Shown here: positions 30,511-42,007 of the stretch, in pieces | Layout: each line of letters opens with the position of its first letter | Numbering within the stretch: the first letter of the stretch is position 1 | Source of the DNA: Candidatus Proelusimicrobium volucris | Lineage (GTDB): Bacteria > Elusimicrobiota > Elusimicrobia > Elusimicrobiales > Elusimicrobiaceae | Length of the DNA: 64,000 bases | Assembly (NCBI GenBank): GCA_944324665.1 | Contig: CALUXD010000001.1 | Span: 558,001 to 622,000 of the forward strand | Direction: 5' to 3' | The notes under the pieces: generated by a model | What the model was told of the DNA's origin: nothing | Database searches by the model: none | The model's input: only the letters and a program-made list of their open reading frames with translations | Made by a program: the position numbers and the translations under genes

Positions 30511-31620
30511 GTGCCGGGAATAATATTTAGATATATATCAAAAAACTTGGCGATATTCTTTTTGGGAATATTGTTCGTGTTCGTTTTTGTCGTTTTTATG
30601 GGGCAGTTCTCCCAAATATTTACCTATGCCATGAACTACGGAGCCGACGTGTTTTGGGTCTTCACCACTATGCTGTATATGGTGCCCGATATATTGGTGC
30701 TTAGCGTGCCTATGGCTTTGCAGATCGCCATTTTGATGACGCTTACCTCCATGGGCCAGACGGGCGAGATTATGGCGCTGCGCGCGGCGGGTTTTTCTTT
30801 TACGGAAATAGCGCGCCCTGTCCTTATTTTCGCGCTGTTGCTTGTGGCCGTAATGACGGGCCTTAACGGCTGGCTCAGCCCTTTGGGCCGCCACCATGTG
30901 GAGCAAAGCAAGGAAGATATAGCCTCCAAAATATCGAAAGTAAACATAGAACCGCGCACTTTCATCGATTTGGGCGATTGGGATTTATTCGCCGAAGACG
31001 TCGATAAGGACAATAATATTATCTATCAGGTCCATCTCTCTCGCAAAAACGACGACAGCGCCCTAAGCACCAAGGTAAACGCTTCCAGAGGCAAGGTTGA
31101 TATAGGTTCGCAGGGAATAAGGCTCACTTTATTTAAGGGGCAGATGCAGAGGGTATATTCTTTGGAAAGCAGGAAGATAATCACCTCCGAATTTAATAAG
31201 TACGAAGTTTATATCCCTCTAAGCCAAAAGAGTACTGACGACCGTCGTTTAAAAGCGGCCGAGCTTACAACGCCGGCGCTTATTAAAGCGGTAAGGCAAG
31301 GCAAGGATTCAATGGGGGAAAAGGAGTGGCGGGAGTATCGCCCCGCGATTAGCTATCGTATGTCTATGGCTTTATGTCCTTTGATATTTTTTCTTTTAAG
31401 CTGCCCGGTAGCTTTTATCACCACCAAAAAAGCAGGCCGCGCCGGCGCGATGATATACAGCTTGGCGTTTATCTTTGCTTATTTCGGGCTGATAACCATA
31501 GGCAACAGCGTAGCGGAAAAGACCGATATTACATTTTTGGTATATAGCGCGCCGTTTTTGCCGGTAATAGCCGGTTTGGCGGCGGGCGTTTATTTGTGGA
31601 AGAAGAGGCTTTCAGACTGA
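30511..31620 (+). CDS. lptF: LPS export permease LptF
   Basis: 369 residues, GTG start. YjgP/YjgQ family: three N-terminal membrane segments (about 11-33, 47-75 and 97-117), a periplasmic beta-jellyroll (~130-270), then three C-terminal segments. Visible: LSVPMALQIAILMTLTSMGQTGEIMALRAAGFSF, the coupling-helix block of this family. With LptG it forms the membrane part of the LptB2FG transporter that extracts lipopolysaccharide from the inner membrane. lptB is not in the window. Its stop overlaps the lptG start (TGATG). Confidence 0.92.
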   Translation: MPGIIFRYISKNLAIFFLGILFVFVFVVFMGQFSQIFTYAMNYGADVFWVFTTMLYMVPDILVLSVPMALQIAILMTLTSMGQTGEIMALRAAGFSFTEIARPVLIFALLLVAVMTGLNGWLSPLGRHHVEQSKEDIASKISKVNIEPRTFIDLGDWDLFAEDVDKDNNIIYQVHLSRKNDDSALSTKVNASRGKVDIGSQGIRLTLFKGQMQRVYSLESRKIITSEFNKYEVYIPLSQKSTDDRRLKAAELTTPALIKAVRQGKDSMGEKEWREYRPAISYRMSMALCPLIFFLLSCPVAFITTKKAGRAGAMIYSLAFIFAYFGLITIGNSVAEKTDITFLVYSAPFLPVIAGLAAGVYLWKKRLSD

Positions 31621-32705
31621 TGAAGATTATAGACAGATACATAGCCAAGAAATTTTGGGGCCCCTTTATATTTATTATCAGCATATTTGCCGTGTTGATA
31701 TTCTTGGGCGACAGCTTGGAAAAAATGCGCTGGATAAACACCTACGGCACTACTTTGGCCTTGGTTCTTAAGTACAGCTTCTTGACTATGCCTTCCTGGC
31801 TGATACAAGTATTGCCCGTAGCGTGTCTGCTCAGCGCGCTGTTTGTGATATCGGATATGATTTCCGGTGGGGAATGGACTGCGTGCTTGGCGGGCGGATA
31901 TTCGGTAAGGCAGATATTCAAACCTTTGATTTTATGTATTTTCATAATAGCGGCGGCGGGCTTTTGCGTGCAGGAATTTTTCGTGCCGGATATGAGCAAG
32001 AAAGCAGAACTTACCCGCCAGCGCAAAATAAGGGGTGAAAAGGATTGGTATTTTAACGTTCAAAACGACGTTACTCTGAGGCTGGACGGCAAGCGCGTGC
32101 TTTTCGCGAAAACGGTCAAAGCCGATGAAGGCCTTATGGAAGGTATGTTTATAGACGTTTACGATGATAACTGGGCGATAAGCTCTCAAATAAGCGCGCG
32201 GCGCTTTGTTTGGAACGAAGGCAAAGGCGTATGGGTGTTTGAAGACGGTTTTACCAGAAACTTCGGCAAGAATGCCAGTATAAAAGAGGAAAGTTTTGAT
32301 ATTATGGATTCCGATTTTTCCGTGCCGCCCGATCAAATAGCGGTGGGCAGCGCGAAGGCTTCTTATCTCAGTATAAGCGATTTGCTAAGACGCATAAAAT
32401 TTTTAAAGGCGAGCGGGCTTACCAGCTATCAGGAGGAAACTTTCCTAAACGCGAAACTGGCCGCGCCTTTCGCCACGGTGATAATGTGCCTTTTGGGTAT
32501 GCCGTTCGCGATAGCTTTAAAGCGTTCGAGCAAACTGCTTAACATAATTGCGGCGATAGCGATAGGCTTTACTTTTTGGTGGATAGTTTCCATGCTTACT
32601 TCCGCCGGACAAAGCGGAATGATAAACCCGATAGTGGCGGGTTGGCTGCCGGTAGGCCTTTTTGCGATAGTGGCTTATGTGGAGTTTAAAATCCTAAGAA
32701 TATAA
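31620..32705 (+). CDS. lptG: LPS export permease LptG
   Basis: 361 residues from ATG 31620, which overlaps the lptF stop and gives the family N-terminus KIIDRYIAKKFWGPFIFI. Six membrane segments with a periplasmic jellyroll between (about residues 125-260). ISGGEWTACLAGGYSVRQIFKPL is the coupling region. Partner of LptF. A terminator follows, so lptFG are a two-gene unit. Confidence 0.92.
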   Translation: MKIIDRYIAKKFWGPFIFIISIFAVLIFLGDSLEKMRWINTYGTTLALVLKYSFLTMPSWLIQVLPVACLLSALFVISDMISGGEWTACLAGGYSVRQIFKPLILCIFIIAAAGFCVQEFFVPDMSKKAELTRQRKIRGEKDWYFNVQNDVTLRLDGKRVLFAKTVKADEGLMEGMFIDVYDDNWAISSQISARRFVWNEGKGVWVFEDGFTRNFGKNASIKEESFDIMDSDFSVPPDQIAVGSAKASYLSISDLLRRIKFLKASGLTSYQEETFLNAKLAAPFATVIMCLLGMPFAIALKRSSKLLNIIAAIAIGFTFWWIVSMLTSAGQSGMINPIVAGWLPVGLFAIVAYVEFKILRI

Positions 32706-32781: not shown

Positions 32782-32805
32782 ATAAAATCTAAAATGGAGG
32801 ACTTT

Positions 32806-35800
32806 GTGCTTAAAAAGATATTAAGACTGGTTTTAAGCTTTTGTTTGATGACGGAAGGTCTGGGCCTTAACGCATACGGTGCGCAGGCGCCTGCGTCTTC
32901 CGCCGCGCAGGAGCGCGAACAGGGGTTTGAAAATTCGGTCTTTAAAGATCCCAATCGCTTCGGTGACGGGATAAAACTTTTTGAGCCTTCCAAATACGGC
33001 TTTTTGGCCGAGGATAAACCACTCCTTTTGCCTTATGAGGAGGATTCTTCCGAAGACGAGGACGAATATTACAAATATAACCGCGCCTATCTGGAAAAAG
33101 TGATAAAGGATATGGACGGCGGAGTCCAGCTTAGGGAACAGGCTACGGAGTATATCGAAATATTAAACCCCTCTCTCCTCTTGCCGATATACGGTACCAC
33201 AATATCGATGACGGGGCGAAAGACTTTCGGCATCAAGTATGACGCAAAAAAATATAAAGAGAATAAAAGCACCGTAACCGACCGAGATACCAGCAGTATG
33301 GAGTTTGAGCAGGAAATGCAGCTTAAGGTGCAGGGCAAGATAAGCGACAGAATCTTTGTAGACATCGATTATGACGACCAGCGCGAAGACGCCCAAAATA
33401 TAGGCGTATCCTATCGTGGCAAGCCGGGCGAGATTGTCCAAAGTGCGGACTTCGGCGATATAGAATTATCCCTGCCGGGAACGGAGTTTATATCTTACAG
33501 CAAACAGGTTTTCGGCGCGAAAATGCACCTTCAATACGGTGACGCGCATTTAAGGCTTATCGGCAGCCAAAACAAAGGCGAGAACAAAAGTAAGCAGTTC
33601 AAAGGCGATAGCGTCTTTGAAACGGTAAACATCAAAGACTTGCAATATATCAGACGCAAGTATTACGATTTGACCTTCGGCTATCAAACCGGCGCCAGCA
33701 CCAGCACGCAGTGGACCTACGCCATAAAACAGGGTACGGAAAAGGTTTATATTGACGATCATACCAACGGCGGTTATCAGGTGGCGAGCAAGGCGGTGGA
33801 TATAAAAACCGGCGCCGTATATCCCACCAACGGCGGGACGGCGGCCTTCAAATTGCTGACGCGCGGCGTGGATTACACGATAGACTATAACCAAAATATC
33901 CTAATATTCAACAACGGCCTCAGCGCGACGGATGTCGTAGCGATAGATTATCAAAACTCGCAGGGGGTTTGGGCCAGTTCCGCCCAGCCGGACGGTTATC
34001 CGATACTAATAAAGACGAATAACGAACGCCCGCTTGTTTCAAACGACGAACTGGATTATCAGCTGGAGATGAAGCGCTATTACAGTATAGGCACCACGCA
34101 AATCACGCGCGACGACGGCAGCGGCAATTTTATTTTGAAATTGCTTGAATCCGACGGCACGGAAGTTTGCGCCGCCAATGACAGCCGCCCCTTTTGCCAA
34201 TTTACCGTCGATTACGATAAGGGTATATTTAAGATAGGCGGCAGATTCAGCGACGTCAGCTTGTATAACGCTACGCCGGCGTCTTCCACAAACAGATATT
34301 TTTTCGTGCAATATACCTCTACGGTAAAGACCTACTTTTTGGAGCCTGATTTAGTCGTCCAATCCGAAACTGTAAAAGTAAACGGGGCGACTATGGAGCG
34401 CAATAAAGACTATTACGTCGATTATGCTTCGGGCTTTATAACTTTCTACAATTCCGATTTGATAGGCTCAAACAGCGTTGTCGATGTTACCTACGATGTT
34501 GCCGGCGGCAGTGAGGATACGGCGCTTATGGGCGGGCGGTTCAATTATGATTTTACCGATAAAATATCCGTCGGCGCCAGTTTATTGAACGAATCGGGCA
34601 GTGAGCCAAAACGCGTACCGAACGTCGGGGCGACAACAAGCAGCTTGATGGCTATGGAAGCGGATTTTAAGGTGGACAATGTGGAAGTGGTTGACGGCGT
34701 GCACGTAACTTTGGGCGCGGAGGCGGCGCAAAGCAGAAAAGACGAAAACCTTTTCGGTTACGCAATGGTGGACAGTATGGAAGAAACCAAAGAATACGTA
34801 AAAGCCTCCACTATATACAGCGATTGGAAAATAGCTTCAAACCCCACTGCGGGCACAAACTTCTTTGATGCCATTAAATGGGATTCACAGGATATTCCGA
34901 TGCTTCAGATAAACCCTTCCGCGATAGCCAACGGCGACGACAAGCAAAACGTACTGTTGATAGATTACGATTTCAGCATAGCGCAGGATAAGGGCTTTGG
35001 CGACAGGGACGAGGTATCCATAGTCTACCCGATAAGCAGTTCGGGGGTCGACTTCTCCAACAAGACATTGTTCGAACTGACTATGCAAGGCGAAGAAAAC
35101 GGCCCGCTTATCAATATTTCGTTTGGTACGATAAACGAAATGTCTGACAATTACACCGATTACAGCGCATTGTTGGCAGACGGATTTTCGCTGGATCAGA
35201 TTTTCCCGGTATGCAGTAAATACTATGTAGCGGGAATGAACACCGTCCCCAAGACGGAAGATTTAAGATGTACCGGGAAATTGACCAATTCCGAAGATAT
35301 GGGCTGGCTTTACATCAACCCGGACGGCTCGTATCAGAGATACAATCCTTTTGCCAATAACGTTTATAATCCTTGGCCTCAGCCTACGGGTGTGATAGAA
35401 ACGCAGGACTTAAACGGCAACGGTTTATTGGATTCTGAAGATTTGACTTCGGGCGGCAATTTCGGTTTTGCGGGGCAGGAGATTAACGGCCTACCGGGCG
35501 GGGAGATAAACTTCAGCGGCTGGAAGACTTTTAATCAGGAGGTGGATTTCGGCTCCGCCACAAATGTTTGGGGTACTGACTGGACTTCCATACAGCAAAT
35601 GCGCATTACCTTAAAGAGAAACCCCAACGGCGGTAAACTTAAAGGCCAAATCAAAATAGCGTCTTTGGGTGTATCTGGCAGCGTGTGGCAGCCGCTTGAT
35701 ACAGATGAGGAAGTCCTTTTAAGCTACGGCATAAACAATGTCGACAATATGAACTATAAGCCTATTTTCAGCGATAACGGCGACGGAGGGGAAGTCTTCC

Positions 35801-38244
35801 GAACTTTATACGGTTCTGTAAACGACTTAAAAAAAGACGACGGCACAAACAATATAGAAGAACAATCTCTGGCTTTGCAGTACGACTTCAGCAAGAATCC
35901 GCTGCTTGATAAGGTTTCGGTGCAGAGGAACTTCAGCGCGATGGATTTTTCCAAGCACAAACAATTTAGATTTTTACTTTACAATAACGGCGAAATAGAC
36001 GAGGATACATATTTCTTCCTGCGTATAGCGGCCGACGAAAACAATTACAGCGAGGTGCGAGTCCCTCTCAATTTTAAAGACGCCTGGCATCTGTACAGTT
36101 TGGAACTTATAGATACCAACGGCGACAATATCCCCGACAGGTGGGAAAATGTTTCCAAATACGATGCAACCATCACCAATGAGGGTATGTTAAATTACAA
36201 GAGGGTTGGTATAATAACTTCCGGTATTATGAAAAGCGGCGGGACAACTCCGCAGGGCGAGGTATGGCTGGACGATATTTTCTTGGCGGAATCAATAGTA
36301 ACCGTCGGCAACGCTTATATGGCCCAGGCGCAGGTGAGCGTGGATAATTGGTTTGACGCGGGCGGCAAGGTAACTTATGTCGATGAGAACTTCCAAACGC
36401 CGGTGGCGGTGGCGGCCAATCAGAAGAATACTCAGGAAGATTATTACTTCAAATTTAAGAGATTTAAAAATTTGCCCATCAACGCCAAATATAACCGTTC
36501 CAATACCGTGACGCCGGATGTTTTGGGTTACAACAGCAGCAATACGGTCAGCCTCTTGGACAAAGGAGAAGTGAACCGCGACAGCGGCAGCATAAACGCC
36601 GAATATATAAATTCCAACTTCCCGCAGATAGGCGTGAATTATTCTTTTGAAAACGCCGACTATCAACTGCTGGAAAGAAACGACGACAGCGATACCTACA
36701 GCGTTACCCTTAACCATACCGCCAAGAGCAAGGACAATATAATAAAAAGCCTTTCGGCGGGCACTTCTCTGGTAAAGAGCAAGATAGATTACAGCGATTC
36801 GCAGCTTATCGCCGCGCAGGGCACCAGCTATAACAGCGACACCACCACGCAAAACTATAATTTTAAGATGACGCTTTCTCCTTGGCAGGGGACTTCCATC
36901 GTACCAAGCTACACTCTAAGCACCGCCGACGAAAAGAGAAAATATTACGACGCTTCCGTCGGGATAGAGGAATTCAGAAACAAAAAGTACAGCAAATCGG
37001 CCGCGGAGACGGCCTCAATCAGTACTGCGTTCAGGATAGCACCCTGGCTTACCCCTACCGCCAGTTACAGCGTCAGCATTAACGAGAACAATAACCTTAC
37101 GCCCACTTCCTATAAAGTGAACGATAACACCTATACTTTTGACATTGGCGACGTAAAAAGTATTAACAGAAGTTCTGAGGGAAATGTGTCGCTCTCTTTA
37201 AACGGGCGCGATATGCTGCCCAAATCAAAATTATTTTCCGCGCTTACGATATCGGGCTCTTACAGAATGCAAGATGGCGACGCGTGGGAAAATGTACCTG
37301 ATTCCTTCGAGACTTTGGACAAACTTTGGCTTAGGAGTTCCATGGGATTAAATTCGCCCTACAGTTACAGGAGCAGTATGACTCTGCGCGACACTTACAG
37401 CGCGGCTATGAGGTGGTCGCCTTTTAAGGAATACGGTTTTAGCGGAATGGCCGCGCCGATAAAAACGATTTCCATAATAAACAACTTCTCGCAGAGCTAT
37501 CAGACCAGTGAGGATTTGGGCTCGCAGTACGAAACGGTGACTTCCACTCTGCCGGACGTGGTTTTCTATATAGACGAGTTGGAAAAACTGTTCGGCGCGT
37601 CGGACAAAATACTTTCCGGTACTAATTTGAAACTCAAATATGCCTTATCTACGAATGAAACCCTCGGCACCAGCTATAAGGAAGATGTAGCTTACGGCGG
37701 CGATTTGCGCTTTGTTCTATTCAATTATTTCGATACTACCTTAAGCTATACCCAACAGGAGCAGGATCAGACGGACTTGCTGGTCAATCAGCCTTTGGCG
37801 AGCTATTTGAGGAAAGATTTTTCCGCGCAGACTTCTTTCTCGCATCGCGCCTTCCGTTTTACTCCCAAGATAACCTATATCTATGACCGCAGCGAGGAAG
37901 TGGGCGACGTCTTGGTCGACAGCGTGGAGGAAATCGTACCCAGCCTTAATATCCGGGTGGACTTCAATTTGCCTTTCAGCTTCCGCCTGCCGATTTTGGG
38001 CGCGCAGTATCTTATGACAAACCGTGTGATATGGAATACAACCGCCAGCTATTCGCGCAGGCGTTCTTTTACCGTGGAAGAAAACCGCGATCTCTTGGAT
38101 ATTACCACTAGTTTGGATTATGAAATTTCCAAAAATATGCGCATAACGCTTTCCGGCGCTTTCCAGAATTTCAAACATCTTTATATAGCGGAGGATTCTT
38201 ATACCGCTTACAATATCGGCACGGTGCTTACTATACAGTTCTAG
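32806..38244 (+). CDS. Very large SprA-like outer-membrane beta-barrel protein
   Basis: 1812 residues from GTG 32806, which has GGAGG 5 nt upstream and gives a clean signal peptide (MLKKILRLVLSFCLM to about AYGA-QA); the ATG at 32794 lacks a site. The block QSADFGDIELSLPGTEFISY and the following KQVFGAKMHLQYGDAHLRL, then GSQNKGENKSKQFKGD, resemble the SprA (type IX secretion translocon) repeats. Long beta-rich regions follow with alternating aromatic strands, two DxNxNGxxD-type loops (TQDLNGNGLLDSEDL and TNGDNIPDRWENV), and a C-terminal half of barrel strands ending in ...IGTVLTIQF, with the terminal Phe expected by the Bam machinery. SprA proteins of Bacteroidota are longer (over 2000 residues). 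No other T9SS gene is in the window. Confidence 0.75.
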   Translation: MLKKILRLVLSFCLMTEGLGLNAYGAQAPASSAAQEREQGFENSVFKDPNRFGDGIKLFEPSKYGFLAEDKPLLLPYEEDSSEDEDEYYKYNRAYLEKVIKDMDGGVQLREQATEYIEILNPSLLLPIYGTTISMTGRKTFGIKYDAKKYKENKSTVTDRDTSSMEFEQEMQLKVQGKISDRIFVDIDYDDQREDAQNIGVSYRGKPGEIVQSADFGDIELSLPGTEFISYSKQVFGAKMHLQYGDAHLRLIGSQNKGENKSKQFKGDSVFETVNIKDLQYIRRKYYDLTFGYQTGASTSTQWTYAIKQGTEKVYIDDHTNGGYQVASKAVDIKTGAVYPTNGGTAAFKLLTRGVDYTIDYNQNILIFNNGLSATDVVAIDYQNSQGVWASSAQPDGYPILIKTNNERPLVSNDELDYQLEMKRYYSIGTTQITRDDGSGNFILKLLESDGTEVCAANDSRPFCQFTVDYDKGIFKIGGRFSDVSLYNATPASSTNRYFFVQYTSTVKTYFLEPDLVVQSETVKVNGATMERNKDYYVDYASGFITFYNSDLIGSNSVVDVTYDVAGGSEDTALMGGRFNYDFTDKISVGASLLNESGSEPKRVPNVGATTSSLMAMEADFKVDNVEVVDGVHVTLGAEAAQSRKDENLFGYAMVDSMEETKEYVKASTIYSDWKIASNPTAGTNFFDAIKWDSQDIPMLQINPSAIANGDDKQNVLLIDYDFSIAQDKGFGDRDEVSIVYPISSSGVDFSNKTLFELTMQGEENGPLINISFGTINEMSDNYTDYSALLADGFSLDQIFPVCSKYYVAGMNTVPKTEDLRCTGKLTNSEDMGWLYINPDGSYQRYNPFANNVYNPWPQPTGVIETQDLNGNGLLDSEDLTSGGNFGFAGQEINGLPGGEINFSGWKTFNQEVDFGSATNVWGTDWTSIQQMRITLKRNPNGGKLKGQIKIASLGVSGSVWQPLDTDEEVLLSYGINNVDNMNYKPIFSDNGDGGEVFRTLYGSVNDLKKDDGTNNIEEQSLALQYDFSKNPLLDKVSVQRNFSAMDFSKHKQFRFLLYNNGEIDEDTYFFLRIAADENNYSEVRVPLNFKDAWHLYSLELIDTNGDNIPDRWENVSKYDATITNEGMLNYKRVGIITSGIMKSGGTTPQGEVWLDDIFLAESIVTVGNAYMAQAQVSVDNWFDAGGKVTYVDENFQTPVAVAANQKNTQEDYYFKFKRFKNLPINAKYNRSNTVTPDVLGYNSSNTVSLLDKGEVNRDSGSINAEYINSNFPQIGVNYSFENADYQLLERNDDSDTYSVTLNHTAKSKDNIIKSLSAGTSLVKSKIDYSDSQLIAAQGTSYNSDTTTQNYNFKMTLSPWQGTSIVPSYTLSTADEKRKYYDASVGIEEFRNKKYSKSAAETASISTAFRIAPWLTPTASYSVSINENNNLTPTSYKVNDNTYTFDIGDVKSINRSSEGNVSLSLNGRDMLPKSKLFSALTISGSYRMQDGDAWENVPDSFETLDKLWLRSSMGLNSPYSYRSSMTLRDTYSAAMRWSPFKEYGFSGMAAPIKTISIINNFSQSYQTSEDLGSQYETVTSTLPDVVFYIDELEKLFGASDKILSGTNLKLKYALSTNETLGTSYKEDVAYGGDLRFVLFNYFDTTLSYTQQEQDQTDLLVNQPLASYLRKDFSAQTSFSHRAFRFTPKITYIYDRSEEVGDVLVDSVEEIVPSLNIRVDFNLPFSFRLPILGAQYLMTNRVIWNTTASYSRRRSFTVEENRDLLDITTSLDYEISKNMRITLSGAFQNFKHLYIAEDSYTAYNIGTVLTIQF

Positions 38245-38255
38245 CGGCATTGTTT

Positions 38256-38987
38256 ATGAATCGGAAAATTTTTATAAAAGCGCGCGATTTGTTTTTGCAT
38301 TTATTTTTCCCGCGGACCTGTTTTTGCTGCGGGCGGGATATCCCGAAGTCAAATCCCGCTTTGCTGTGCAGGGAATGTTTGCTTAAACTTGAGCGCTGCG
38401 AAGGGCTTATCTGCCGCCGCTGCGGACTGCCTTTAAAAAACGGCGGGGCTTATTGTTTTAACTGCCGCGGCGGCAAAGCCTCAAAATATAAATGTTCGTT
38501 TATACGCTCTTCCTTGGTTTTCAATGAGCCTTCACGTTCTTTAATCCACTCGTTTAAATACGAAAAATATACCGACATATCCAAATTCTTCGCCGCATTG
38601 ATGTATAAAACATATAAGGAAAACCCGCCTTATTTTGAGGCTGATTTTTTAATGCCCGTCCCAATACACACCCGCCGCTTGAGGGAAAGGGGTTTTAATC
38701 AGGCTTTTCTCCTGGCAAAAGAACTTTCCAAATTAAACGGTGTGGAAGTAAACGATATATTGATAAGAACGCGCAAGACGAAAAGCCAAACTTCGCTCGG
38801 GCGCGCCGAACGCAAAGAGAATATAAAAGACGCTTTCGCCTTAAAAGCCGGGGCCGATGTCAAAGGCAAGGCTTTTATTTTGATTGACGACGTTTGCACT
38901 ACCGGCGCCACTTTGGAAGAATGCGCCCGCATTCTAAAGGAAAACGGCGCGCGGGAAGTTTTGGCTTTAACCGCTCTTAGAGAGTAG
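38256..38987 (+). CDS. comF: ComF family phosphoribosyltransferase
   Basis: 243 residues from ATG 38256 (a TTG two codons earlier is also possible; no clear ribosome-binding site for either). N-terminal zinc-ribbon cysteines (CFCCGRDIP, LCRECLLKL, LICRRCGLP and YCFNCRGG) precede a PRTase domain with VPIHTRRLRERGFNQA and the PRPP-binding loop ILIDDVCTTGATLEE. ComF takes part in natural DNA uptake in several bacteria; elsewhere its role is less clear. It follows the SprA-like gene by 11 nt. Confidence 0.93.
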   Translation: MNRKIFIKARDLFLHLFFPRTCFCCGRDIPKSNPALLCRECLLKLERCEGLICRRCGLPLKNGGAYCFNCRGGKASKYKCSFIRSSLVFNEPSRSLIHSFKYEKYTDISKFFAALMYKTYKENPPYFEADFLMPVPIHTRRLRERGFNQAFLLAKELSKLNGVEVNDILIRTRKTKSQTSLGRAERKENIKDAFALKAGADVKGKAFILIDDVCTTGATLEECARILKENGAREVLALTALRE

Positions 38988-39960: not shown

Positions 39961-41172
39961 CTATTTTTTCTTTTCGGTTTTGGCGGGCTCGGCTTTTGCC
40001 TTGTCGGACTGCGTTTTCGCGTCGTCTTTTGCCGATTGCGCTTTTCCGTCCGCAGAGGCATTTGCCGGCTGCGAATATTCAAATTTGACCATTACCTTAA
40101 TTTCCGCTTTATCTTTAAGCGAGGCCAAATAATCCAAATTGGCTTTTTGCATTTCCGTAGCTGTCAGGAACTGGGCCAATTCGGGTTCTATATCCTTGTA
40201 GGTAAAATCTTTCTGCGCTTTTTTCTCGTTAACTTTTATTATATAGTAGCCGTCGTCCGTCTTGATGGGGTCGCTAATCGCGCCCACTTTGATATTGAAC
40301 ACTTTCTCATCGAACTCTTTGGGCATAAGGCCTTTAATCAAAATCATTTCGCCGCCGGTGGCCAAAGAGGCTTTGTCGTTGGAATATTTCTCTATCGCCT
40401 CGACAAAAGTAATCTTGCCGGAGGTTATTTGTTTTTTAATGTCTTTGGCTTCCTTCTCTTTAAGTTTCCAGTTGGCCTGCGTGGCGTTTTTATCCACCTT
40501 TATGAATATGGGGGAGAGTTTTATTTGTTCCGCAGTAAGCTGGGTAAGTTTCGCGGCCAAAGGGGCGGCCAAAGTGAGTCTTTCTCTGGAAAGCTTCTTT
40601 ATTTCCGTTTCGTTGCCCTTCATCAATACGCGTATATCGTCGTAGAGCTGTTCGGTCTGTTCCTTGGTGGGTGCTTTCGCTTTTTCTCTGGCGACGGCGT
40701 CTATCATTTTCTTTACCGCAAGCTGATCTTTTATGCGTTCTTCAAATTGCTTATAGGTAAGCCCTTCTTTTTTGAGTTCCGCGTTAAAGGCTTTTTGGGC
40801 TTCTTTCTCGGAGAGGGCTTTGCCGTTCTCGTCCTTTTCAAAACGTTTTTTGATTTCTATTACATTTTCGTTGACTTCGCTGTCTTTTACTTTTATATTC
40901 TGTTCTTTTGCCGCTTGTAAAAGAAGCTGCTCTATTATCATTTGGTTTAAAACTTCTTCTTTTATGGCCGTTACATTGTCCTGATTTTCCAGCAGGGCCG
41001 GATTTTGCTTTTTGTAGACTTCCATTGTGGTGTCTATTATTTTTTGATATTCGGAATTCATTATGGGAGTTCCGTTTACCGTAGCCACGGTGGAATCCAC
41101 CACTTTCGCATTAAGCAGAGCCGTACCTAAAAATAAGGCCGCCATAATTACGGTTATTTTATTTGCTTTCAT
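39961..41172 (-). CDS. SurA-like peptidyl-prolyl isomerase/chaperone
   Basis: 403 residues. Signal peptide (to about LLNAK), then the SurA N-terminal chaperone domain (VDSTVATVNGTPIMNSEYQKI, VLNQMIIEQLLLQAAKEQNI). A parvulin domain sits near residues ~250-350 (AIEKYSNDKASLATGGEMILI, DEKVFNIKVGAISDPIKTDDGYYIIKV). The C-terminal tail is low-complexity and Lys/Ala-rich (QSAKDDAKTQSDKAKAEPAK). It should escort outer-membrane proteins through the periplasm, for example the large barrel at 32806. It overlaps the upstream lipoprotein foldase by 14 nt. Confidence 0.9.
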   Translation of the reverse strand: MKANKITVIMAALFLGTALLNAKVVDSTVATVNGTPIMNSEYQKIIDTTMEVYKKQNPALLENQDNVTAIKEEVLNQMIIEQLLLQAAKEQNIKVKDSEVNENVIEIKKRFEKDENGKALSEKEAQKAFNAELKKEGLTYKQFEERIKDQLAVKKMIDAVAREKAKAPTKEQTEQLYDDIRVLMKGNETEIKKLSRERLTLAAPLAAKLTQLTAEQIKLSPIFIKVDKNATQANWKLKEKEAKDIKKQITSGKITFVEAIEKYSNDKASLATGGEMILIKGLMPKEFDEKVFNIKVGAISDPIKTDDGYYIIKVNEKKAQKDFTYKDIEPELAQFLTATEMQKANLDYLASLKDKAEIKVMVKFEYSQPANASADGKAQSAKDDAKTQSDKAKAEPAKTEKKK

Positions 41173-42007
41173 TATTTATTACCTCCACGCCGTACTTGCC
41201 TTTTAGGGAATTTAAGTAGGCGTCCATTTTTTGTCTTTCCAAAATTTCTTTTATACGGTCCTTAGCTTTATTGTAGCTAAGTTTTTCTTCGCCCGTTTTC
41301 ATTATTATATGAAATCCGCGCGGCGTTTTTATGAATCCTTGCACCTGATAGGCGGGCGTATTGGCCGCGGCCACCTCTATCTGGGGCAGATATTCGCCAG
41401 GAATGAAGGGGGGCAATTCGCCTTTATTTTTCTTGGAAACTGGATCTTTTGAAAATCTTTTTACCGCGTCCTGGAACGTCTGTTTGGTTTTCGCGTTGCG
41501 TATGGCGCGGGTAACGTCGGCCGCTTCTTTGGCGTCTTGCAGCACTATTTCCATAAGATAGATCTGATAGGGATATTTATCGTGGTAGGCTTTTATTTCC
41601 TCTTCGCTTACGGCTATTGTACCGTCGTCATAGAGTTTTTGCGCCATCAATCTGGAAAGCGAATACTCTTTTGCTTTGGCCAGGCTTCTTTTTTGCTGGT
41701 CTTCGATATCTTTTATTTCCTTAATATATTTTGGGTCTTTTTCCAAGCCGCTGTCCTTTGCGGCTTTTATGATAAGTTTCTCGTTGATCAAATAATTAAG
41801 GAAGTTTTCCCTTCCGATATCCGTATCCAAATATTTTTGGAACGAATCGTCCAAAGAAGACGCTTCCGTTTCAAAATCGGTTTTAGTTATAGGTTCGCCC
41901 GCCACTGTCGCCAGGACGTCCCCACTTTGCGTATTATTGTTTAGCGGCATTTTCTCGCAGGCGCACAGTATAAGCAGAGCCGCTGCCAAAAGAGTTAATT
42001 TCCTCAT
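41159..42007 (-). CDS. Parvulin-type foldase lipoprotein (PrsA/PpiC-like)
   Basis: 282 residues. Lipoprotein signal peptide with lipobox LCAC (cysteine at 16). SurA_N-like region (VLATVAGEPITKTDFETEA, FLNYLINEKLIIKAAKDSG), then a PPIC domain (IRNAKTKQTFQDAVKRFSKD, VQGFIKTPRGFHIIMKTGEEK). The domain order matches the neighbouring SurA-like protein, so the pair probably arose by duplication, one copy soluble and one membrane-anchored. Confidence 0.9.
   Translation of the reverse strand: MRKLTLLAAALLILCACEKMPLNNNTQSGDVLATVAGEPITKTDFETEASSLDDSFQKYLDTDIGRENFLNYLINEKLIIKAAKDSGLEKDPKYIKEIKDIEDQQKRSLAKAKEYSLSRLMAQKLYDDGTIAVSEEEIKAYHDKYPYQIYLMEIVLQDAKEAADVTRAIRNAKTKQTFQDAVKRFSKDPVSKKNKGELPPFIPGEYLPQIEVAAANTPAYQVQGFIKTPRGFHIIMKTGEEKLSYNKAKDRIKEILERQKMDAYLNSLKGKYGVEVINNESK

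Follow-up and report, generated by a model that had tools for sequence, protein, structure and literature searches.

Encoded within a 64,000-nucleotide stretch of genome from an Elusimicrobiaceae bacterium (Elusimicrobiota; contig CALUXD010000001.1, positions 558,001 to 622,000), here called the window, is an 1812-residue protein that is a true, diverged homologue of SprA/Sov, matching it in sequence and in fold over nearly its whole length. Its most likely role is that of translocon in the outer membrane, as part of a type IX-like secretion system that is both reduced and divergent.

Sequence and predicted fold

The gene is present in a single copy in this genome, and four stretches of its product match the SprA model TIGR04189, the best of them spanning residues 131 to 290 (E 8.3e-35). 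Two peptides that a preliminary description of this DNA had singled out as a SprA-like block (FGDIELSLPGTEF and QVFGAKMHLQYG) are both present and lie inside the TIGR04189 match. Searching Pfam with the whole open reading frame gave no significant match, and searching the PDB with its single sequence did not find SprA, so that profiles were needed. Profiles built from 19 relatives (E 1e-34) and from 54 N-terminal halves (E 1.2e-36) each retrieved SprA entries only.

The structure was modeled with AlphaFold as two overlapping halves (the prediction length limit was 1200 residues), for which the mean predicted local distance difference test scores were 82.7 (N-terminal half) and 82.1 (C-terminal half). 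Four SprA chains headed the Foldseek results for each half, with E values of 1.9e-46 for the N-terminal half (next unrelated match, 2.5e-7) and 4.8e-26 for the C-terminal half (next match, 1.1e-5). SprA also led the VIA-align rows for the N-terminal half (Z 18.0, root mean square deviation 7.8, 731 residues aligned), covering residues 129 to 1565 of the SprA chain. From the C-terminal half, 797 residues aligned to SprA chain residues 959 to 2305, and SprA chains were the only ones in which more than 670 residues aligned. By Foldseek rank and VIA-align coverage of the two halves, the SprA fold extends over the length of the protein. At the C terminus, where an outer-membrane barrel had been expected, the half-length model contains 29 strands of at least 9 residues from window position 36205 onward; the closed barrel of SprA itself has 36 strands and opens laterally.

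The preliminary description named, as grounds for rejecting its reading, the lack of any SprA profile match together with an unlike fold; TIGR04189 and Foldseek both lead to SprA. Its suggestion of a true homologue outside Bacteroidota also held up against profile and fold, the nearest named loci being uncultured Elusimicrobiales and Elusimicrobiaceae (98% identity). Titles among the 80 of 257 relatives listed read Elusimicrobiota or simply "bacterium." Like SprA/Sov of Flavobacterium johnsoniae and Porphyromonas gingivalis (TIGR04189; PDB entries 6h3i, 6h3j, 8gl6, and 8gl8), the protein has the fold of both halves and the conserved N-terminal blocks, and it co-occurs with PorV and with cargo bearing a C-terminal domain (CTD). 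Unlike them, it has 1812 rather than 2403 residues, is 18% identical over the part of the N-terminal half aligned by VIA-align, and is encoded away from por and gld genes.

Carriers and cargo

Profiles for partner and motor proteins were run on 60 Elusimicrobiota genomes. The PorV family was matched in 59 of them, with copies numbering up to dozens per genome, and a PorV carrier exceeded the cut-off in 39; the type A CTD (TIGR04183) did so in 42. TIGR04183 had no match in three genomes without an intact sprA (G008, G050, and G017, where the gene is a pseudogene). When the PDB was searched with a profile of Elusimicrobiota PorV, F. johnsoniae PorV (6h3i_F) was found at 6e-35 and TodX at 1e-4. 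Among the best 150 places listed per family, a CTD is followed by PorV on the same strand within 600 bp in at least 27 pairs from 15 genomes, and the reverse order occurs 0 times; random placement would give about 0.16 CTD-then-PorV pairs. Elsewhere in the phylum, CTD-like ends also occur on huge frames of 17343 codons (G037:C6:90200-90490), 14455 codons (G004:C3:110811-111176), and 13077 codons (G028:C6:189653-189958).

In the window's own genome, the partners of sprA lie outside the window as two sets of cargo and PorV. The first cargo (L161:7570-11082; 1171 aa) has FTP, PepSY, and M4_C domains, an HEYVH motif, and a CTD-like end, and a PorV gene (367 aa) begins directly after its stop codon. 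The product of that gene is matched over its full length by NF033709, at 89.4 bits against a cut-off of 90. The second PorV (L160:89-1072) stands at the start of contig C2, ahead of a Tad pilus operon, and contig C4 breaks off after the first 770 aa of the cargo presumed to belong to this PorV. In five relatives (G003, G034, G032, G057, and G007) this giant multi-immunoglobulin (multi-Ig) cargo is whole and forms one contiguous run with PorV and the Tad operon, and the order of CTD then PorV recurs across the Elusimicrobiaceae. Two clients are predicted in this genome: an M4-like metallopeptidase, and the giant multi-Ig protein of the cell surface that is encoded beside the Tad operon. Both PorV-family carriers and CTD proteins, which the preliminary description had thought worth seeking, are thus found in the same genome. 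The PorV-family gene on contig C2 directly precedes a Tad-type operon comprising TadE, CpaB, secretin, CpaF, TadB, and TadC (L160:89-8355).

In F. johnsoniae, type A cargo uses PorV, whereas for type B cargo a dedicated shuttle is commonly encoded downstream (PMC12618676). The Elusimicrobiota cargo resembles type A (TIGR04183, NF033709) in pairing an Ig-like CTD with a PorV-family carrier, but whereas all type A cargo of F. johnsoniae uses PorV (PMC12618676), many Elusimicrobiota cargo genes have a PorV of their own immediately downstream. Having the shuttle encoded immediately after the cargo is a trait shared with type B CTDs and their PorP/SprF partners (PMC12618676, PMC9143113), from which the Elusimicrobiota pairs differ in that the shuttle is of the PorV type and the signal of type A. 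Elusimicrobiota merge the two modes, a type A-like signal on the cargo being paired with a PorV-type carrier dedicated to it.

Distribution in the phylum

In an evenly spread sample of 120 Elusimicrobiota genomes, TIGR04189 had a match in 105. The 15 apparent absences include one contig-edge artefact, in a genome that does have sprA (G048), and one decayed gene with stops (G017); all others fall in a single family with many small genomes, which are probably Endomicrobiia symbionts. The gene looks decayed as well in G102, where the match is weak. Decaying sprA remnants with in-frame stops were seen at L205, L206 (G017), L204, and L207 (G102), in small-genome members of the phylum. Open frames of more than 1600 codons run antisense to sprA in three relatives (L069, L120, and L146). 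Such very long frames are probably an effect of composition. Three long antisense frames were left out of the alignments.

Proposed mechanism and alternatives

In F. johnsoniae, the cargo's CTD attaches to loops of PorV inside the SprA pore and exits sideways together with PorV, and an input of energy has been proposed to pull PorV away (PMC10994853). The cargo of Elusimicrobiota would cross the inner membrane through Sec and then enter the SprA pore, where its CTD would dock onto loops of its dedicated PorV carrier; cargo and PorV would leave SprA sideways, and the carrier would hold the cargo at the cell surface. Matches to the PorU model NF033707 were rejected as PorU, the aligned part being confined to model positions 861 to 1095 at the CTD end, and no match to the PorU catalytic region occurred among the places listed for the 60 genomes. 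With no sortase, the simplest reading would be that the carrier stays in place as the anchor. Power may come from a diverged GldLM lying beyond the models, from another inner-membrane motor of the Tol/Exb type, or from no source at all. Tentatively, the phylum may share a type IX-like translocon that works without a GldLM motor and in which each cargo's own PorV-type carrier is a permanent surface anchor. This would be a simpler version of the system, or an older one. The reduced export system envisaged in the preliminary description is supported by the presence of PorV carriers and CTD cargo and by the failure to find GldL, GldM, GldN, or the PorU catalytic domain.

Several points weigh against a reduced, SprA-based secretion system. 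The role in secretion is a prediction from genes and modeled structures. At 119.4 bits, the window's protein falls below the curated TIGR04189 cut-off of 200 bits, which was reached in 0 of the 120 sampled genomes. For the C-terminal half, ordinary TonB-type barrels reach VIA-align Z scores equal to or higher than those of SprA, so the identity of this half rests on Foldseek and on aligned length. The CTD of the M4-like cargo scores 17.2 bits, below the TIGR04183 cut-off of 23, and the FlgD Ig-like domain matches it a little better. As for the motor, GldM and GldN were recognized in 0 of 60 genomes by profile searches that had no positive control, GldN being the sole ring component searched, and GldL gave one weak and spurious match (in G033), to a coiled-coil stretch that matches many unrelated families as well.

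These negative searches leave a possible, though doubtful, case for a full type IX system whose GldLM-type motor and ring have diverged past the NCBIfam models: SprA itself is under its cut-off in every genome, so other parts could be still more diverged, and a positive control for GldM and GldN was lacking. However, the models for PorV and the CTD both score above cut-off in the phylum, whereas GldM and GldN found nothing and GldL only its coiled coil. That the SprA fold has been kept for another envelope role, such as the handling of lipid or lipopolysaccharide, is improbable; lptF and lptG do precede sprA in 55 of 63 related loci, but in 50 of the 55 they are transcribed divergently from sprA, PorV is present and paired with CTD cargo, and CTD matches are missing from the three genomes without an intact sprA. 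A reading of the CTD-like ends as plain FlgD-type Ig domains, of the PorV-like proteins as FadL-type uptake channels, and of their pairing as unrelated to SprA is very unlikely. FlgD_ig does compete for the CTDs, and the carriers have weak matches to UPF0164 and Toluene_X, but the cargo-linked carrier comes within a bit of the NF033709 cut-off over its full length, the PorV profile places real PorV far ahead of TodX, and pairs in the one order greatly outnumber the chance expectation.

Relation to published systems

A SprA, PorV, and CTD set across Elusimicrobiota contradicts reports that no phylum beyond the FCB group has type IX secretion genes (a 2024 paper, PMC11285876) and that the system is exclusive to Bacteroidota (a 2025 paper, PMC12618676). 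CTDs were described outside Bacteroidota in 2014, in Poribacteria, with an exporter that was not known (PMC3909097). The Elusimicrobiota proteins likewise carry TIGR04183 signals outside Bacteroidota; unlike the Poribacteria proteins, which lack Por genes and whose export route was left open, they are accompanied by a matching SprA and PorV, offering a candidate route for CTD proteins of this kind. Because blocking the motor of F. johnsoniae traps cargo on the translocon (PMC10994853), Elusimicrobiota are a natural case for asking whether a motor is needed. A literature search found no paper describing SprA in Elusimicrobiota: PMC7031533 and PMC8542988 name Elusimicrobia and have the phrase type IX secretion in the reference list only, and the accessible portion of PMC12204202 holds no passage on type IX secretion in Elusimicrobia.

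The gene and its neighborhood

Features of the sprA locus are collected in Table 1. The longest ATG start, at 32794, would give 1816 aa; a GTG start, preceded by GGAGG with a 5-nt gap, is plausible and yields the 1812 residues originally read from the sequence, a length also given by the orthologues L057 and L059.

Table 1. Features in and around the sprA-like gene (window coordinates)
Feature	Position	Strand	Basis
lptF	30511..31620	+	PF03739 (lptF/lptG pair, E 8e-68 and 6e-74)
lptG	31596..32705	+	PF03739 (lptF/lptG pair, E 8e-68 and 6e-74)
GGAGG, probable ribosome-binding site for GTG 32806	32796..32800	+	Sequence
sprA-like gene, 1812 aa	32806..38244	+	Family profiles, predicted fold, reading of the open frame
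N-terminal SprA block, TIGR04189 positions 93-257, holds FGDIELSLPGTEF...QVFGAKMHLQYG	33193..33675	+	Profile match
Second SprA block, TIGR04189 positions 580-797	34288..34866	+	Profile match
C-terminal transmembrane beta-strands, 29 of at least 9 residues	36205..38241	+	AlphaFold model
comF	38250..38987	+	TIGR00201

As first described, sprA stands between lptFG and comF, flanks recognized by PF03739 and TIGR00201, and no por or gld genes lie near it. Among 70 related loci, sprA is followed by comF in 59. Two genes for SurA/PrsA-like peptidyl-prolyl isomerases lie nearby on the minus strand (window 39961 to 42007); they are kept within the genus, but sprA loci of other families showed none alongside. 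A peptidyl-prolyl isomerase subunit is likewise part of the known SprA core.
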